DNA of 64,000 bases from Cellulomonas sp. Y8 (GTDB taxonomy: Bacteria; Actinomycetota; Actinomycetes; Actinomycetales; Cellulomonadaceae), in the NCBI RefSeq assembly GCF_008033115.1, contig NZ_CP041203.1, positions 1,922,001-1,986,000 on the forward strand, read 5' to 3'. The notes beneath the pieces were generated by a model. The model searched no databases. It saw only the letters and a program-made list of their open reading frames with translations, and was not told the DNA's origin. Numbering within the stretch: the stretch's first letter is position 1; each line of letters starts with the position of its first letter. The position numbers were made by a program, and so were the translations under genes. Shown here in pieces: positions 8,094 to 43,034 of this stretch.

Positions 8094-9077
8094 TCAGGCC
8101 TCCACGCGGTCGGTCGCGGACGGGGTGGCGGGGCGCGCTGCGGGGTCCGGGTCGACCGGGGCCCCGGTCAGCCGGACGAACGCGTCCTCCAGGGTGCTGC
8201 GCTGCACGCGCAGGTCGTCGGGCCGGACGTCGGCGGCCGCGAGGGCGACCATCACGTCCTGCACCACGTTGCCGGTGCCGCGGACCCGCACGGACCCGTC
8301 GGGCTCGAGGTCGACCGAGCCGACCGACCCGAGGGCGTCGAGCGCGGCCGCGTCGACGGGCGCGGACGGCCGGAAGGTGAGCGTCTGGTCGGCCCCGACC
8401 AGGGCGGCGACCTCGGCGGGGGTCCCCTCGGCGACGACCCGGCCGGCGTCGACCAGCACGACGCGGTCGCAGAGCCGCTCGGCCTCCTCCATGAAGTGCG
8501 TGACGAGCACGATCGTCACGCCGCGCCGCCGCACCCGTTCGACGACGTCCCAGGTGTCCCGGCGCGCCTGCGGGTCGAGGCCGGTGGTGAGCTCGTCGAG
8601 GATCGCGAGCTCCGGGTTGCCCACCAGCGCCAGCGCGATCGACAGCCGCTGCTTCTGGCCGCCGGACAGCGCCCGGAACTGGGTGCCGGCCTTGTCGGCG
8701 AGCCCGAGGTCGCGCAGCAGCTCGTCGGGATCCGCGGGGTCGTCGTAGAAGCAGGCGTACTCCTCGACCGCCTCGCGGACCGTGATCCGCAGGGGCAGCG
8801 CGGACTCCTGCAGCTGCAGCCCGACCCGCTCGCGCAGGGCGGCGCGGTCGGCGGCGGGTCCGGCCGGGTCGAGCCCGAGGACGCGGACCGTGCCGCCGTC
8901 GGGCTCGCGCAGGCCGCCGATCATCTCGACGGTGGTGGTCTTGCCGGCGCCGTTGCGGCCCAGCACGCCGACGATCTCGCCGCGGTGGACGGTCAGGCTG
9001 ACGTCGGCGACGGCGACGGTGCGGCCGTAGCGCTTCTCCAGGTGCTCCGCGTGGATCACGGGGTCTGCTCCGGGCAT
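8094..9077 (-). CDS. ABC exporter ATP-binding protein (DrrA-like)
   Basis: This is a 327-residue nucleotide-binding subunit. Walker A GRNGAGKTT is at 40-48, signature LSGGQ at 137-141, Walker B LAILDE at 157-162, and THFMEEAERLCDRV contains the H-loop. About 90 residues after the ATPase core match the C-terminal extension of DrrA-type exporters (DUF4162-like). It is translated just ahead of its permease (TGACATG junction). GAGGAGGAGATC precedes the ATG at 9077. Likely a drug, lipid or peptide efflux pump; substrate not identifiable. Confidence 0.92.
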   Translation of the reverse strand: MPGADPVIHAEHLEKRYGRTVAVADVSLTVHRGEIVGVLGRNGAGKTTTVEMIGGLREPDGGTVRVLGLDPAGPAADRAALRERVGLQLQESALPLRITVREAVEEYACFYDDPADPDELLRDLGLADKAGTQFRALSGGQKQRLSIALALVGNPELAILDELTTGLDPQARRDTWDVVERVRRRGVTIVLVTHFMEEAERLCDRVVLVDAGRVVAEGTPAEVAALVGADQTLTFRPSAPVDAAALDALGSVGSVDLEPDGSVRVRGTGNVVQDVMVALAAADVRPDDLRVQRSTLEDAFVRLTGAPVDPDPAARPATPSATDRVEA

Positions 9078-26617: not shown

Positions 26618-26623
26618 ACTCTA
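26618..26623 (-). promoter_or_regulatory. -10 element for dnaX (leaderless)
   Basis: The minus strand reads TAGAGT, six bases, then GTG of dnaX, a classical actinobacterial leaderless arrangement. Confidence 0.55.
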
Positions 26624-26778
26624 GAGGGGACGGCCGACATCCCGGGACCCCGCCGGGGAGACCTGGGGACCGAGCCCGTCGCGGGATCGAGACGCGTGAG
26701 GAACCGGCCACGCCGCGGCCGCCAGGGCCCCTGACGTGTCATCCATGCGTCACCGCGTCCCACATTCCGGACATGATG

Positions 26779-26807
26779 TTCCATCCCGCGAGACGCACGG
26801 CTAAGTT
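26779..26807 (+). promoter_or_regulatory. Promoter candidate for the first methionine leader ORF
   Basis: TTCCAT (26779-26784) and TAAGTT (26802-26807) are separated by 17 bp in a locally AT-rich stretch about 57 bases before leader ORF 1. Confidence 0.4.
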
Positions 26808-26863
26808 TCGCCGTCATCGCGGGCCACGTCGGCCCGCCCGACGCCCGAGGAGGAGGCAGCCCG

Positions 26864-26950
26864 ATGCGCCAGCACGCCACGACCACCTGCCGCCCCTCGA
26901 TGTGCGCCGCAGCACGGGCCTGCGCCTGTCGCTGTACCACCGCGGCCTGA
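26864..26950 (+). CDS. Cysteine-rich leader peptide upstream of metQ 1
   Basis: This 28-codon ORF starts at ATG 26864 with GGAGGAGG about seven bases upstream, one of the best ribosome sites in the window. Five of 28 codons are cysteine (C9, C14, C20, C22, C24) and two are methionine; the second half contains CAAARACACRC. Coding for scarce sulfur amino acids just before a methionine-uptake gene is the hallmark of an attenuation leader. A C-rich, unstructured-looking 221-bp stretch follows before metQ. No protein homology is claimed; the evidence is position, ribosome site and composition. Confidence 0.62.
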   Translation: MRQHATTTCRPSMCAAARACACRCTTAA

Positions 26951-27172
26951 CCGCGAGCGGTACCGGCGGCCGCCCGAGCCGCCACCCGGGCCACGACCCA
27001 CGCCGCCCCGGCGCCCGGCGCCCGCGCCCCGTCGCCCCCACGCCGCCCCCGGCCCCTCCCCCCGAGGCCGCCGATCTGCTGGCCCGGCGACCCGCACCCC
27101 GCACCACCCCCGACCCCCGCAGCACCCCGACCCGGCACGTCCCCGCCGGGCCCACCCGAGAGGCACACCCCC

Positions 27173-28085
27173 ATGAAGCGCAGACTGACCGCCTGGATCG
27201 CCGCGATCGCCGCCACCGCGTCGCTCGCCGCGTGCGCGTCCGGCGGGCGGCGAGAGCTCGGCCGGTGCCACCGCGACCGCCGACGCGGACAACCGCGTCA
27301 CGGTCCGCGTCGGCGTCACCGACAAGGCCCAGGAGTACTGGACGACGTTCACCGACCTCGCCGCGGACGAGGGCATCGACGTCGAGCTGGTGAACTTCAC
27401 CGACTACACGCAGCCCAACCCGATCCTCAGCTCGGGCGACCTGGAGCTCAACCAGTTCCAGCACCTGCTGTACCTGGCGAACTACAACGTGAACTCCGAC
27501 GACGACCTGCAGCCGATCGGCTCGACGGCGATCTACCAGCTCGGCCTCTACACGACCAAGGGCTACGCCTCCCCGGAGGACGTCCCGGAGGGCGCCGAGA
27601 TCGCCATCCCGAACGACGTGGTGAACCAGGCCCGCGCGCTGCTGGTCCTCCAGTCGGCCGGCCTGATCTCGCTGGTCGACGGCGGCAACGCGTTCTCGAC
27701 GCCCGCCGAGGTCGACGAGGCCGCGTCGAAGGTCAAGGTCGTCCCGGTCGACGCCAACCAGACCGCGGTGCAGCTGCAGAGCCTGGACGGCGCGATCATC
27801 AACAACAACTTCGCGACGGACGCGGGCATCGACCCGACGACGGCGATCTACTCCGACCTCGAGGACACCGACACCGCGCGGCCGTACCTCAACCTCTGGG
27901 TCGCCCGGGCCGAAGACGCCGACAACCCGGTGTTCCAGCAGCTCATCGACATCTACCACTCGCCCGAGGTCACCGACCAGCTGGTGGAGGAGAACGGCGG
28001 CACCGCCGTGGTCGAGGACGTGCCGGCCGAGGAGCTCCAGTCCGACCTCGCCGACCTCGAGGACCTGGTCCGCGAGAACGCCTGA
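27173..28085 (+). pseudogene. metQ: Methionine ABC transporter lipoprotein MetQ, copy 1, frameshifted
   Basis: This is a MetQ/NlpA substrate-binding lipoprotein of about 303 residues. A signal peptide with lipobox SLAAC puts the lipid on C21. The frame breaks at GGG 27245-27247, right after the signal peptide. Deleting one G gives CASGGGESSAGATATADADN and joins to VTVRVGVTDKAQEYWTTFTD and the rest. Hallmarks are VELVNFTDYTQPNPILSSGD, LNQFQHLLYLANYN and DGAIINNNFA. It is highly similar to copy 2. A terminator follows, so it is transcribed apart from metQ2-metN-metI. Error is likelier than inactivation. Confidence 0.88.
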
Positions 28086-28095
28086 GCACCCGGTG

Positions 28096-28131
28096 GACGG
28101 CGCCGACCCCCGCGACGGGGTCGGCGCCGTC
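28096..28131 (+). terminator. Terminator after metQ 1
   Basis: A perfect 15-bp stem (28096-28110 with 28117-28131, arm GACGGCGCCGACCCC) with a six-base loop starts 10 bases after the stop. Confidence 0.85.
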
Positions 28132-28297
28132 GGCGCGCTCGGGAGGGCGCCGCGACCCCGCTCGGTGGCGGGACCACGACCCCGGTGGCACCGTGATCGC
28201 GCGGCACCCGGGTGCCGTGAGACCCGCGGACGCGGCGCTCCCGGCGGGTGCTAGGGTCGCCCGCGTCCGCCCCCGCCCAGGGACAGGAGTCGAGCAC

Positions 28298-28396
28298 GTG
28301 AGCACCCACGCCGCTTCCGAGCGCCGCGCGCAGCCGATGCGCGCCACGGCCGGGGCGTCCTGCGGGCTCATGTGCTGTCGCCAGCGAATGTGCTGA
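28298..28396 (+). CDS. Cys/Met leader peptide upstream of metQ 2
   Basis: This 32-codon ORF starts at GTG 28298 with AGGAG eight bases upstream and ends in SCGLMCCRQRMC before TGA 28394-28396. Four cysteine and two methionine codons fall in the last 12 positions, the usual placement of regulatory codons in attenuation leaders. A TAGGGT -10 candidate lies at 28252-28257. About 270 bp of C-rich sequence with several possible hairpins separates it from metQ 2. Polycysteine leader ORFs are established regulators in mycobacteria; this assignment is by analogy. Confidence 0.72.
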   Translation: MSTHAASERRAQPMRATAGASCGLMCCRQRMC

Positions 28397-28663
28397 CGCT
28401 GCACCCTCGCAGCACGGCCCTCCCGCGGCGGACGTCCCGCCCGGCCCGACGCTCCTGAGCGAGCCGACCGGCCCGACCGGACACCTCCTCCCGGCCCCGA
28501 TCCCCGACGGCCCGCCGTCCGGCCCGGGGCCCCGCCGGACGGCCGAGACCCCGGCGCCGCGGCCTGACCGCACGCCACCGCCCTGCGGGCCCGGCCACCG
28601 GCCCGCACGGGGCTCGCCCCGAGCCGAGCCCCACGCTCAGATCCACCGGAAGGCAGCACCACC

Positions 28664-29563
28664 ATGAAGCGCAGACTGACCGCCGCCCTCGCCGCCCTCG
28701 CCGTGGGCGCCCTGGCCGCCTGCTCCGGCGGCGAGCCCGCGGCCGCACCGACCACGGCCGACCCGGACAACCCGGTGACCGTGCGCGTCGGCGTGACCGA
28801 CAAGTCGAAGGCCTACTGGACCACGTTCACCGACCTGGCGGCCGAGGAGGGCATCGACGTCGAGCTGGTGAACTTCACCGACTACCAGCAGCCGAACACG
28901 GTGCTCAGCGAGGGCCAGCTGGAGCTCAACCAGTTCCAGCACCTGCTGTTCCTCGCGAACTACAACGTCAGCGCGGACGACGACCTCGCGCCCATCGGCG
29001 CGACGGTCATCTACCAGCTCGGCCTGTACACGACCCAGGGCTACGCGTCGCCGGACGAGATCCCGGACGGCGGCGAGGTCGCCATCCCGAACGACCCGAC
29101 CAACCAGGCGCGCGCGCTGCTCGTGCTGCAGTCGGCCGGCCTCATCTCGCTGAAGGACGGCGGCAACGCGCTGTCGACCCCCGCCGAGATCGACCAGGCG
29201 GCGTCCCGCGTGAAGGTCGTCCCCGTCGACGCCAACCAGACCGCGATCCAGCTGCAGGACCTGGACGCCGCCGTCGTCAACAACAACTTCGCCGCCGACG
29301 CGGGCATCGACCCGACCACGGCGATCTACTCCGACCTCGAGGACACGGACACGGCCCGCCCGTACGTGAACATCTGGGTCGCCCGAGCCGAGGACGCCGA
29401 CAACCCGGTGTACGCGGACCTGATCGAGATCTACCACCGCGACGAGGTCATCGGCCAGCTCCTGGACGAGAACCAGGGCACCGCCGTCGAGCAGGACCTC
29501 AGCCCCGAGGAGCTGCAGGCCAGCCTCACGGAGCTCGAGGACCAGGTCCGCGCCGCGGGCTGA
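28664..29563 (+). CDS. metQ: Methionine ABC transporter lipoprotein MetQ, copy 2
   Basis: This 299-residue substrate-binding lipoprotein of the MetNIQ importer has the signal MKRRLTAALAALAVGALAAC with lipid on C20. Mature hallmarks are VRVGVTDKSKAYWTTFTDLA, LNQFQHLLFLANYN, NDPTNQARALLVLQSAGLIS and LDAAVVNNNFA. It binds methionine or related compounds outside the membrane. It heads the metQ-metN-metI operon, with a leader ORF upstream and a 12-bp hairpin between it and metN. It is intact, in contrast to copy 1. Confidence 0.94.
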   Translation: MKRRLTAALAALAVGALAACSGGEPAAAPTTADPDNPVTVRVGVTDKSKAYWTTFTDLAAEEGIDVELVNFTDYQQPNTVLSEGQLELNQFQHLLFLANYNVSADDDLAPIGATVIYQLGLYTTQGYASPDEIPDGGEVAIPNDPTNQARALLVLQSAGLISLKDGGNALSTPAEIDQAASRVKVVPVDANQTAIQLQDLDAAVVNNNFAADAGIDPTTAIYSDLEDTDTARPYVNIWVARAEDADNPVYADLIEIYHRDEVIGQLLDENQGTAVEQDLSPEELQASLTELEDQVRAAG

Positions 29564-29679: not shown

Positions 29680-30750
29680 ATGACCGCGATGGTCTCCCTG
29701 CGTGACGTGACGAAGGTGTTCGACGGGTCCTCAGGACCCGTGCGCGCCGTCGACGGCGTCACGCTCGACATCGAGCGCGGCGACGTGTTCGGCGTGATCG
29801 GCTACTCCGGCGCCGGCAAGAGCACGCTGGTCCGGCTGATCAACGCGCTCGAGGCCCCGACCTCGGGGCAGGTGGTGGTCGACGGCACCGAGCTCACGGG
29901 GCTCAAGGAGCGGGGCCTGCGCCCCGCCCGCGCCGGGATCGGCTTCATCTTCCAGCAGTTCAACCTGCTGAAGTCCCGCACGGTGGCCGCGAACGTGGCG
30001 TACCCGCTGCGGGTCGCGAAGTGGCCGAAGGCCAAGCGCGAGGCCCGCGTGGCCGAGCTGCTCGAGTTCGTCGGGCTGTCCGACAAGGCCAAGCAGTACC
30101 CCGACCAGCTGTCCGGCGGGCAGAAGCAGCGCGTGGGCATCGCCCGGGCGCTCGCGACGTCGCCGGCCCTGCTGCTCGCCGACGAGGCCACCAGCGCCCT
30201 CGACCCCGAGACGACCAAGGACGTGCTCGACCTGCTCCGCCGGGTCAACCGCGAGCTCGGCGTCACGATCGTGGTCATCACGCACGAGATGTCGGTCGTC
30301 TCCTACCTGTGCAACAAGGTCGCGGTCATGGAGCACGGCAAGGTGGTCGAGGAGGGCGACGTCTACCGCGTGTTCGCGGAGCCCACGCAGCCGATCACCC
30401 GCCGGTTCATCGGCGCCGCCCTGCACGACCGGCCGCGGCCCGACGTCGTCGCCCGGCTGCGCGAGCGGCACGCCGGCCGGATCGTCACGATCGCGATCCG
30501 GGAGAGCGAGGCGACCGCCGGGATCATCGTCACCGAGCGCCTGCGCGCCCACGGGATCGACGGGCACGTGGTGTTCGGCGGCATCACCGAGGTGAACTCC
30601 CGCCCGCTCGGCTCCCTCACGTTCGCGCTGGAGGGTCCGCACGCCGCGATCGACGCGTTCCTCGCCGACCTGCGCGCGCACACCGAGGTCATCGAGCACG
30701 CCCCCGACGGCGACCATGCCGGCCCCGCGAGCAAGGAGGTGGGCGCGTGA
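29680..30750 (+). CDS. metN: Methionine ABC transporter ATP-binding protein
   Basis: This is the 356-residue ATPase of the D/L-methionine importer. Walker A GYSGAGKST is at 41-49, the Q-loop in FIFQQFNLLKSRT, signature LSGGQ, Walker B LLLADEATSALDP and ITHEMSVV. A C-terminal NIL domain (about 270-345, with ITEVNSRPLGSLTFALEG) senses methionine and gives trans-inhibition in homologues. ATG 29680 follows CAGGACGGTG; ATG 29689 is an alternative. The stop overlaps the metI GTG. Confidence 0.95.
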   Translation: MTAMVSLRDVTKVFDGSSGPVRAVDGVTLDIERGDVFGVIGYSGAGKSTLVRLINALEAPTSGQVVVDGTELTGLKERGLRPARAGIGFIFQQFNLLKSRTVAANVAYPLRVAKWPKAKREARVAELLEFVGLSDKAKQYPDQLSGGQKQRVGIARALATSPALLLADEATSALDPETTKDVLDLLRRVNRELGVTIVVITHEMSVVSYLCNKVAVMEHGKVVEEGDVYRVFAEPTQPITRRFIGAALHDRPRPDVVARLRERHAGRIVTIAIRESEATAGIIVTERLRAHGIDGHVVFGGITEVNSRPLGSLTFALEGPHAAIDAFLADLRAHTEVIEHAPDGDHAGPASKEVGA

Positions 30751-31409
30751 ACTCCAACGGCGTCTCCCTGTGGCCCGAGCTCTGGCAGGCGCTCGGCGAG
30801 ACCCTGCAGATGGCGATCGCCGCCCTGGCGATCGGCGGGCTCGCCGGCCTCGTGCTCGGCATCGCGCTCTACGTGACCCGGGCCGGCAACATCCTGGCCA
30901 ACCGCCCGGTGTTCGTCGTGCTCAACGTGCTGGTCAACATCGTCCGGCCGATCCCGTTCATCATCTTCATCACCGCGGTCCGGCCGCTGACCCAGGCGCT
31001 CACCGGGGCGTCCTACGGCGTCGAGGCCGCGATCCCGGCGCTCGCGATCATGGCGACGTTCGCGACCTCCCGCATCGTCGAGCAGAACCTCGTCGCGCTC
31101 GACCCGGGCGTCGTCGAGGCGGCGCGCGCGATGGGCGCCGGCCCGCTGCGGATCATCGCGACCGTGATCGTCCCCGAGACGCTCGGCCCGCTCATCCTGG
31201 GCTTCACATTCCTGTTCGTCGGCATCGTCGACATGACGGCGGTCGCAGGCGCGATCGGCGCCGGCGGCCTCGGCGACTTCGCGATCGTCTACGGGTACCA
31301 GCGGTTCAACGACGTGGTCACGTGGACCGCCGTCGCGGTGATCGTGGTGATGGTCCAGCTCGCCCAGTTCCTGGGCAACTTCCTGGCCCGCAAGGTCCTG
31401 CGCCGCTGA
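30747..31409 (+). CDS. metI: Methionine ABC transporter permease
   Basis: This 220-residue permease has five or six helices. The coupling motif EAARAMGAGPLRIIATVIVP and the family segment VNIVRPIPFIIFITAVRPLT are present. It forms the MetNI channel with the ATPase. The GTG start overlaps the metN stop (GTGA) and is preceded by AAGGAGG. A 2+1 palindromic repeat element follows at 31430. Confidence 0.95.
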   Translation: MNSNGVSLWPELWQALGETLQMAIAALAIGGLAGLVLGIALYVTRAGNILANRPVFVVLNVLVNIVRPIPFIIFITAVRPLTQALTGASYGVEAAIPALAIMATFATSRIVEQNLVALDPGVVEAARAMGAGPLRIIATVIVPETLGPLILGFTFLFVGIVDMTAVAGAIGAGGLGDFAIVYGYQRFNDVVTWTAVAVIVVMVQLAQFLGNFLARKVLRR

Positions 31410-42209: not shown

Positions 42210-43034
42210 TCAGCGGAGCGTGACCTGCCGGGCGACGATGCCGGCGCGGGCGCGGCGGGCGTTCGCGTCGAGCGGCTCGGTGTCGGCGAGCGCGGCGGTG
42301 AACTTCGGCGCGAACGCGGTCACGGCCGGCTCGATGTCCTCGGCCTCGCTGCCGCGGGCCAGCTCCCACACCGGGACGACCAGGCCGTTGGACCGGAAGT
42401 AGCCGATGAACTTGGCGCCGTCGAAGCCGGACTCCCGGCGGCCGTGCAGGCGGGCGAGGCCGTCGATGACCTGCTGCTCGTCGTGCGGCTGCGCCCAGCG
42501 CAGGTACTCGCGGGCGCCCATGCGGACCCAGTAGGCGGCGTCCACGGCAGCGAGCTTCTTGGTGTCGACGACGCCCGCGTCGGCCTCCTCGATGGCGGCC
42601 TTCAGGTCGGGCGTCATCTCGGTGTCGGCGGCCACCCAGTAGGCGAAGCTCTCCTCGACCGTCACCTCGAAGGGCACGGTGAGGTCGAGCACGTCCTGCA
42701 GGCGCGGGCCGGGGCCGGCCAGACCGGAGCTCTGCACGGCGGTGCCGGGCTCGGAGTCGAGCGCCTCCAGCAGCGCGGCGGCGAGGTCGCGGCTCGCGTC
42801 GCCGGAGCCGCCCACGACCTGCAGGGCGAGCAGCACGACGCCGTCCGCGCGGTGCAGCGCGGCCCAGCCGTCGGGCAGCACGGTCGTGACCGTGATGTCG
42901 CGCGCGCCGTGCTCGGCGTTCGTGCGGGCGGTCGCGGTGGCGGCGGGCACGAGCTCGCGCAGGGCGACCCAGTCGGGCTCGCCGGGGAGGCCCTCGAAGG
43001 GGCGCAGCACGAAGTCGACGGAGGAAGAGGCCAT
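42210..43034 (-). CDS. DUF5926 family protein
   Basis: This 274-residue protein is recognised from [31 protein letters not shown] and [20 protein letters not shown], with a Glu/Asp-rich composition. Function unknown; the family is conserved in actinobacteria, often beside a family 2 glycosyltransferase as here. Homologues often have a short basic N-terminal leader that is absent from this start. ATG 43034 lies seven bases after a TAGCCT -10. Confidence 0.85.

Follow-up and report, generated by a model that had tools for sequence, protein, structure and literature searches.

We analysed a window of 64,000 nucleotides, the whole stretch of DNA considered here, from Cellulomonas sp. Y8, whose genome is 4.48 Mb on one contig and whose relatives include Cellulomonas hominis, C. 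pakistanensis and C. triticagri. The forward strand, on which all features lie unless stated otherwise, carries two genes for NlpA/MetQ lipoproteins, metQ1 (27173..28085) and metQ2 (28664..29563), and after these metN (29680..30750; ABC ATPase with a NIL domain) and metI (30747..31409; permease). By Pfam, MetQ2 (PF03180, 8.7e-64) and the body of MetQ1 are clear NlpA/MetQ proteins, MetN matches PF00005 and PF09383, and MetI matches PF00528. By NCBIfam, the best matches are MetQ (TIGR00363, 9.3e-42 for MetQ2), MetN (TIGR02314) and MetI (PRK10782.1), all below NCBIfam's own cut-offs. In the present assembly, the reading frame of metQ1 is disrupted at a point between the signal-peptide part and the body; metQ1 has no internal stop in the relatives G005, G065, G055, G023, G030, G057, G071, G075 and G022. 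The broken frame reflects either a pseudogene in the making or a sequencing error.

We found a short ORF with a Shine-Dalgarno (SD) sequence upstream of each metQ gene. Leader ORF 1 (26864..26950; MRQHATTTCRPSMCAAARACACRCTTAA) is Cys-rich, has 28 codons from an ATG start, including five Cys and one internal Met, and follows two overlapping AGGAGG motifs (26848..26856). Leader ORF 2 (28298..28396; MSTHAASERRAQPMRATAGASCGLMCCRQRMC) precedes metQ2-metN-metI and has 32 codons from a GTG start, including four Cys and three internal Met; it ends in LMCCRQRMC and follows an AGGAG (28285..28289) that is seen also in relatives. The distance from SD to start is 8-11 nt for both, and the leader stops lie 222 nt before the ATG of metQ1 (27173) and 267 nt before the ATG of metQ2 (28664). 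Contiguous Cys codons are limited to one CC pair in leader 2, with none in leader 1. We ranked by Met/Cys score the window's ORFs of 20-40 codons, on either strand, whose SD is at least 4 bases long. Of these 35 ORFs, five have at least 4 Cys, and leaders 1 and 2 take the first and second ranks. Hence, the earlier note was right to report two Cys/Met leader ORFs with strong ribosome sites, as borne out by coordinates, SDs and ranks, and the distances that it gave, 220-270 bp 5' of the metQ genes, agree with those measured. Third by the same score is another Cys-rich, SD-led small ORF at 42466-42534 (+).

Start codon, SD and stop of leader 2 are alignable in 15 genus sequences, and start, SD and frame persist through length changes in this alignment. 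Leader 2 appears as ...CGLMCC(R)QRMC or a close variant in G005, G065, G055, G023, G030, G057, G022 and G062. Leader 1 was visible in six of the 10 genomes with metQ1; in the other four the contig ends too early. The leader 1 peptide is common to G000, G005, G030 and G057, and its SD is kept in the aligned relatives, at a shifted position in G071 and G022. In the latter two only the end of leader 1 is kept, in a TGTCGCTGTACC stretch whose DNA is identical in all six genomes. Thus the start codons and Cys runs, on whose conservation in relatives the earlier note had staked its reading, are conserved; two genus leaders (G075 and G013) are poor in sulfur codons. In nine close relatives, the codon differences of leader 2 are 33 non-synonymous and 9 synonymous, and the N-terminal part of the leader peptides varies among relatives. 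The 33 to 9 ratio argues that strong purifying selection does not act on the full leader 2 peptide; as far as these alignments go, only its end looks to be kept.

The two leaders had been described as unrelated in sequence, apart from their clustered sulfur codons, and as two independent attenuators. We found that the G022 leader before metQ1 opens nearly like the leader before metQ2: the best match of its start region is the leader 2 start region (80% over 51, E 3e-8). Since this intermediate links the leaders, two independent origins are unlikely, and both leaders probably derive from one duplicated leader-metQ cassette or have exchanged sequence.

Each leader is preceded by promoter-like words. 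In the alignment of relatives, the candidate promoter region of leader 1 (26757..26807, by eye) has a -35-like TTCCAT (26779-26784), a GAGAC box (26790-26794) and a -10-like TAAGTT (26802-26807), with a spacing of 17 nt. The candidate promoter region of leader 2 (28218..28257), drawn from the 15-sequence alignment and box counts, has a TGAGAC box (28218-28223) and a -10-like TAGGGT (28252-28257). Just 3' of metQ1 is a strong GC-rich hairpin without a U-run (28093..28134; -50.7 kcal/mol including a neighbouring hairpin, z -4.05), a candidate for the transcript end of metQ1. A consensus scan of 26620-28700, this hairpin included, returned no sigma-70 site and no intrinsic terminator. Hence, separate metQ1 and metQ2 transcripts, as suggested before, are plausible from the promoter-like words and the hairpin between them, although the consensus scan was empty. 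Before leader 1 we also noted GTCCCACATTCCGGAC at about 26758, and an inverted repeat, GCGGGCC-GGCCCGC, at 26815-26840. The repeat reads GCGGACC-GGTCCGC in G005, G030 and G057, and these paired changes make it a candidate hairpin of the transcript's 5' end.

Upstream regions of met operons were taken from MetN searches of 200 family and 394 class genomes (40 family places, 40 + 28 class loci and 37 genus regions, chosen rather than random), with G571, G299 and G595 excluded for upstream sequence that was too short. We found a short ORF with a Met/Cys score of at least 6, a threshold set after a first scan of the same regions, in 97 of the resulting 142 regions and antisense in 4 of 142; the rate in dinucleotide shuffles is 0.2-5% by group. 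By group, leaders occur in 34/40 family, 30/37 genus, 15/16 f27, 10/13 f26 and 6/7 f24 regions, in one of nine of a mixed group (G482, with almost the Cutibacterium peptide) and in none of the 11 f5 regions; the single hit among nine f34 regions (G376, no Met) was dropped as chance, leaving 96. Further loci under the threshold look like leaders by eye (G075, G013, G455, G098, G104, G137, L031 and the metQ1 leaders of G071 and G022); they enter some composition, codon and box tallies and are not among the 97. The leader type, a short ORF with Met-Cys codons at its end that lies some 100-400 nt 5' of a met transporter operon, is present in four family groups and Cutibacterium. Named carriers are Cutibacterium modestum and C. 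porci (MTAAFSHTVDADLRAASMMMCRPCCLRMLGTC) and Pengzhenrongella frigida; a comparable ORF was not found in C. aerilata, a Dermacoccus and two MAGs.

In f26, the leader lies before a metN-first operon, and none was found before three sampled metQ-first operons (G363, G611 and G575). Since f26 peptides such as MTTTSNRTLATEAITTPGARCMCRMCAF match metL of Streptomyces lividans (MSTTSDRTPATEATTTPGARCMCRRMCAF), f26 is very likely Streptomyces. Within about 1500 nt of 30 cysD loci (the L189 flank is shorter), no leader reached a score of 6; cysD is usually inside an operon, so this result is a specificity control and no proof that cys genes lack leaders. Judged by sequence, the Met/Cys leader family is widespread in actinobacteria, wider than the earlier note supposed, and its members are probable sulfur-amino-acid sensors.

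TGAGAC/GTCTCA boxes stand 5' of the leaders in 14 of 35 genus regions (2.05 expected), 11 of 15 f27 regions (2.08) and 7 of 37 family regions (2.35), and in none of the 10 f26 and 6 f24 leader upstream regions. In the genus and f27 these boxes are likely the operator of some regulator; an operator common to all leaders was rejected, since the box is absent in f26 and f24 and weaker in the family. By eye, a palindrome like GTCCGCTATTCGGAC precedes most f26 leaders (L160-L168).

In 38 representatives, Cys makes up 14.7% and Met 10.7% of the last 26 residues of the leaders. Met-Cys pairs number 42 vs 15.2 in residue shuffles (reached in 0 of 2000 shuffles), and Cys-Met pairs are depleted (5 vs 15.2). 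Met-Cys is present in 91 of 106 leaders, and an internal Met in 105 of 106. As the leaders were picked by Met/Cys content, these composition figures are in part circular, which does not apply to the TGT and CGA counts below. For Cys, the codon is TGT in 58 of 140 cases in 36 leader representatives vs 3 of 85 in the 31 window ORFs called genes, about a tenfold enrichment of a rare codon (p 2e-11, kinship not corrected); third positions of the other leader codons are still 86% G+C. TGT is favoured before C (35/58 vs 22/82 for TGC). The Arg codon before Met is CGA in 65 of 100 cases, compared to 11 of 398 Arg codons elsewhere in the leaders and 50 of 898 among the window genes. These biases mark a codon- or nucleotide-level constraint, and the surplus of rare TGT among the Cys codons fits the codon-level sensing suggested earlier.

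The spacers between leader and gene, 26951..27172 after leader 1 (C 0.586, G 0.275) and 28397..28663 after leader 2 (C 0.513, G 0.311), are both candidate Rho-loading regions; we take C-rich, G-poor sequence at the leader stop to be such a region from the general properties of rut sites. Among 200-nt pieces of the window on either strand, the two spacers rank in the top 0.03% and 0.2%, and of 18 upstream intergenic regions in the window, that of metQ2 has the highest C-over-G, tied with the one at 8094-9077 (-). C exceeds G in the spacer of 102/102 leader loci, a T5 run occurs in one of the 102, and in all 91 comparisons the spacer bias is above that of the sequence preceding the leader. In 96 loci, the C-G skew, about -0.05 over the final 40 nt of the leader, rises to +0.17 in the first 20 nt past the stop and holds near this level for 200 nt, so that the bias begins at the stop codon; another stretch of positive skew lies 60-100 nt before the leader stop. 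Over 160 nt, C-G is 0.180 in the 96 leader loci vs 0.062 in 30 leaderless loci. The leaderless controls are also C > G, more weakly (24 of 30), as are five family or genus loci without a scored leader (G100, G109, G164, L022 and L023). Hence, the loci have the C-rich, G-poor untranslated stretch expected of a Rho-dependent attenuator, a feature that is weaker in the leaderless controls.

Of the marks of an amino-acid leader attenuator, we found the conserved SD-led short ORF upstream and the clustered Met and Cys codons before met genes; the intrinsic terminator and alternative antiterminator of the classical form were not found. A classical terminator/antiterminator was therefore rejected, with no U-run in the spacers and no terminator-like site in 26620-28700. 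A riboswitch or other Rfam element, SAM riboswitches included, was rejected as well, since there was no match at the gathering score and, at E <= 5, two irrelevant weak matches.

We consider it likely that both ORFs are translated leaders that attenuate the metQ1 and metQ2-metN-metI transcripts in response to Met- and Cys-tRNA charging, with Rho as the most probable means. The ORFs, the conservation of sulfur codons before met operons, the codon biases, the spacer composition and the lack of a U-run terminator are observed; that Cellulomonas sp. Y8 translates the leaders, that they sense tRNA charging, in which direction they act and that Rho takes part are inferences. The leaders would act in cis, leader 1 on the metQ1 transcript and leader 2 on the metQ2-metN-metI transcript. 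When charged Met-tRNA or Cys-tRNA is scarce, the ribosome would slow on the Met/Cys codons near the leader end, and the state of the downstream RNA would permit transcription into the transporter genes. When both tRNAs are plentiful, the ribosome would leave at the leader stop and expose the C-rich spacer, and transcription would be terminated, most likely by Rho. Leader 2 would sense both Met and Cys, and leader 1, its paralogue before the duplicated metQ1, may have drifted towards Cys. As to the earlier idea that Cys codons control methionine uptake, leader 2 has Met codons alongside its Cys codons and so would not read out Cys alone.

A leader ribosome could instead open an RNA structure that hides the metQ start region. 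This has been proposed for mycobacterial polycysteine uORFs; in the accessible text, pairing of the uORF with downstream RNA in M. smegmatis hides the SD, and Cys-dependent ribosome speed controls downstream translation. Some folding is present here: around the leader stop, folding is somewhat more stable than in shuffles (mean z -1.08; 10 of 36 below -2), and a hairpin GCTGC-loop-GCAGC just past the leader 2 stop (28398..28413) keeps its arms in 14 of 15 rows, with a loop that varies in length and sequence. Folds of the whole leaders are unremarkable (z -1.33 and -0.41). A stem GUCAGC/GCUGAC at the leader 2 stop follows its pattern in 14 of 15 rows, three with a C-A mismatch, and is not claimed because no compensatory double change was seen. 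However, in 30 loci, a ribosome placed at the first late Cys codon and one placed at the stop give the same mean unpaired probability of the first-gene SD region (0.51 each), and SD accessibility shifts by more than 0.15 in 7 of 30, four of them in the expected direction. Equal accessibility at both positions speaks against SD sequestration, which we rejected. Duplexes between leader end and spacer are no better than shuffles (mean z -0.06; 0 of 36 below -2), so that long-range pairing of this kind was rejected too, and the gap of 100-400 nt between leader and gene is long. Control at the level of metQ translation therefore seems unlikely to us.

The conserved words, TGTC and CGAATGTG, might also be part of a riboswitch, a protein site or some other RNA element in which the ORF is incidental. 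TGT before C, CGA before ATG, the excess of Met-Cys and the depletion of Cys-Met do suggest a nucleotide-level constraint beyond amino acids; yet no Rfam family fits, the leader end forms no excess of duplexes with the spacer, and genus leaders of differing length retain the start codon, the SD and the frame, so that we hold such an element to be rather improbable. It is very improbable that the product of the ORFs is itself a functional Cys-rich microprotein, for instance a metal-binding one, that belongs to the transporter operon. In its favour, these Cys-rich, translated-looking ORFs always adjoin the transporter, but the leader peptides have no Pfam or NCBIfam family (one Pfam match, E 0.059, far under its cut-off), their N-terminal part is variable with more non-synonymous than synonymous differences, and a bias towards rare codons would not be expected in a gene with an abundant product.

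Control by Met- and Cys-tRNA charging can be set beside the sulfur physiology of the host, in whose genome we found no match for CysD or PAPS reductase and five strong Cys/Met-metabolism PLP enzymes. Methionine and other organic sulfur compounds that are taken up may be turned into cysteine by reverse transsulfuration; given this and the lack of CysD and PAPS reductase matches, a Cys readout on a methionine importer would be physiologically sensible. In the genus, a strong PAPS reductase match is absent in 16 of 19 genomes with a close MetQ (E <= 3e-124) vs 10 of 62 others, where four of the 16 have short weak matches over the Pfam cut-off and the association is largely one clade, so that kinship inflates the contrast. 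A close MetQ and missing PAPS reductase in most of one clade suggest that sulfate assimilation was lost there and that imported organic sulfur is relied on. Met-Cys leaders also occur in family genomes with CysD, such as G081, G082 and G084; hence, sulfate auxotrophy is not the general cause.

More tentatively, and with rather less confidence than we have in tRNA-dependent attenuation at this locus, we propose that the leaders form a class-wide actinobacterial sensor of two amino acids. Tandem Met-Cys stalls one codon apart would act as an OR gate, giving the same RNA outcome for a shortage of either tRNA, tuned by the rare codons TGT and CGA and coupled to Rho. In sulfate non-assimilating Cellulomonas, the cassette would have been duplicated with metQ, and the second copy would have become a Cys-biased reader of methionine import.

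Rho-dependent leader attenuation is known from tnaC of E. coli, which senses free tryptophan through an arrest peptide. As in tnaC, a ribosome held at the leader end would cover the rut region adjoining the stop; unlike tnaC, the window leaders are proposed to respond to codon starvation and not through an arrest peptide. The tnaC case is named in the accessible part of a 2005 survey (PMC1262725), which describes leader peptides with Cys codons for cys operons in Mycobacterium and P. acnes and for cbs in B. longum, proposes Rho for them, and reports no conserved RNA structures upstream of methionine operons in Actinobacteria. The window leaders resemble the Cys leaders described there in having Cys codons near the stop and no conserved terminator. 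Mycobacterial polycysteine uORFs (Canestrari et al. 2020) are described, in the text that we could access, as leaderless, with contiguous Cys runs, before cysteine genes (PMC13236596, PMC9094748 and PMC9031893). They share with the window leaders a short ORF with Cys codons upstream of sulfur genes and, as proposed here for the window, Cys-codon sensing; in contrast, the window leaders are mixed Met-Cys, SD-led and before a methionine importer.

The nearest published relative is metL of S. lividans TK24, so the Met/Cys element is not unique to the window. In the accessible part of PMC8079986, metL lies before metNIQ, is leaderless with a 5' end mapped by RNA-seq, and is labelled methionine-dependent, with its methionines and threonines pointed out; hairpins lie downstream, with no clear or typical intrinsic terminator. 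That part of the text makes no mention that we found of the Cys codons of metL. Like metL, as given there (ending CMCRRMCAF), the window leaders are short ORFs with Met and Cys codons clustered near the end, before a methionine importer; unlike metL, they are SD-led, two in number, and one is Cys-skewed. In the openly accessible literature, as far as it could be consulted, we found no description of a dual Met/Cys leader family. New here are the joint retention of Met and Cys codons, the TGT enrichment, CGA before Met, and the C-rich spacer that starts at the stop without a U-run terminator.

A leader peptide is usually taken to sense a single amino acid, and here Met and Cys codons are kept together, in this order and beside a rare Arg codon, before methionine importers. 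These joint Met-Cys codons suggest that imported methionine serves actinobacteria as a cysteine source and that its import is regulated on both amino acids. If this is true, the published methionine/threonine-dependent description of metL would be revised, and the gap left by the 2005 survey, which found no RNA control of methionine genes in Actinobacteria, would be filled. The leaders would also offer a testable case of leader attenuation without intrinsic terminators in high-GC bacteria.
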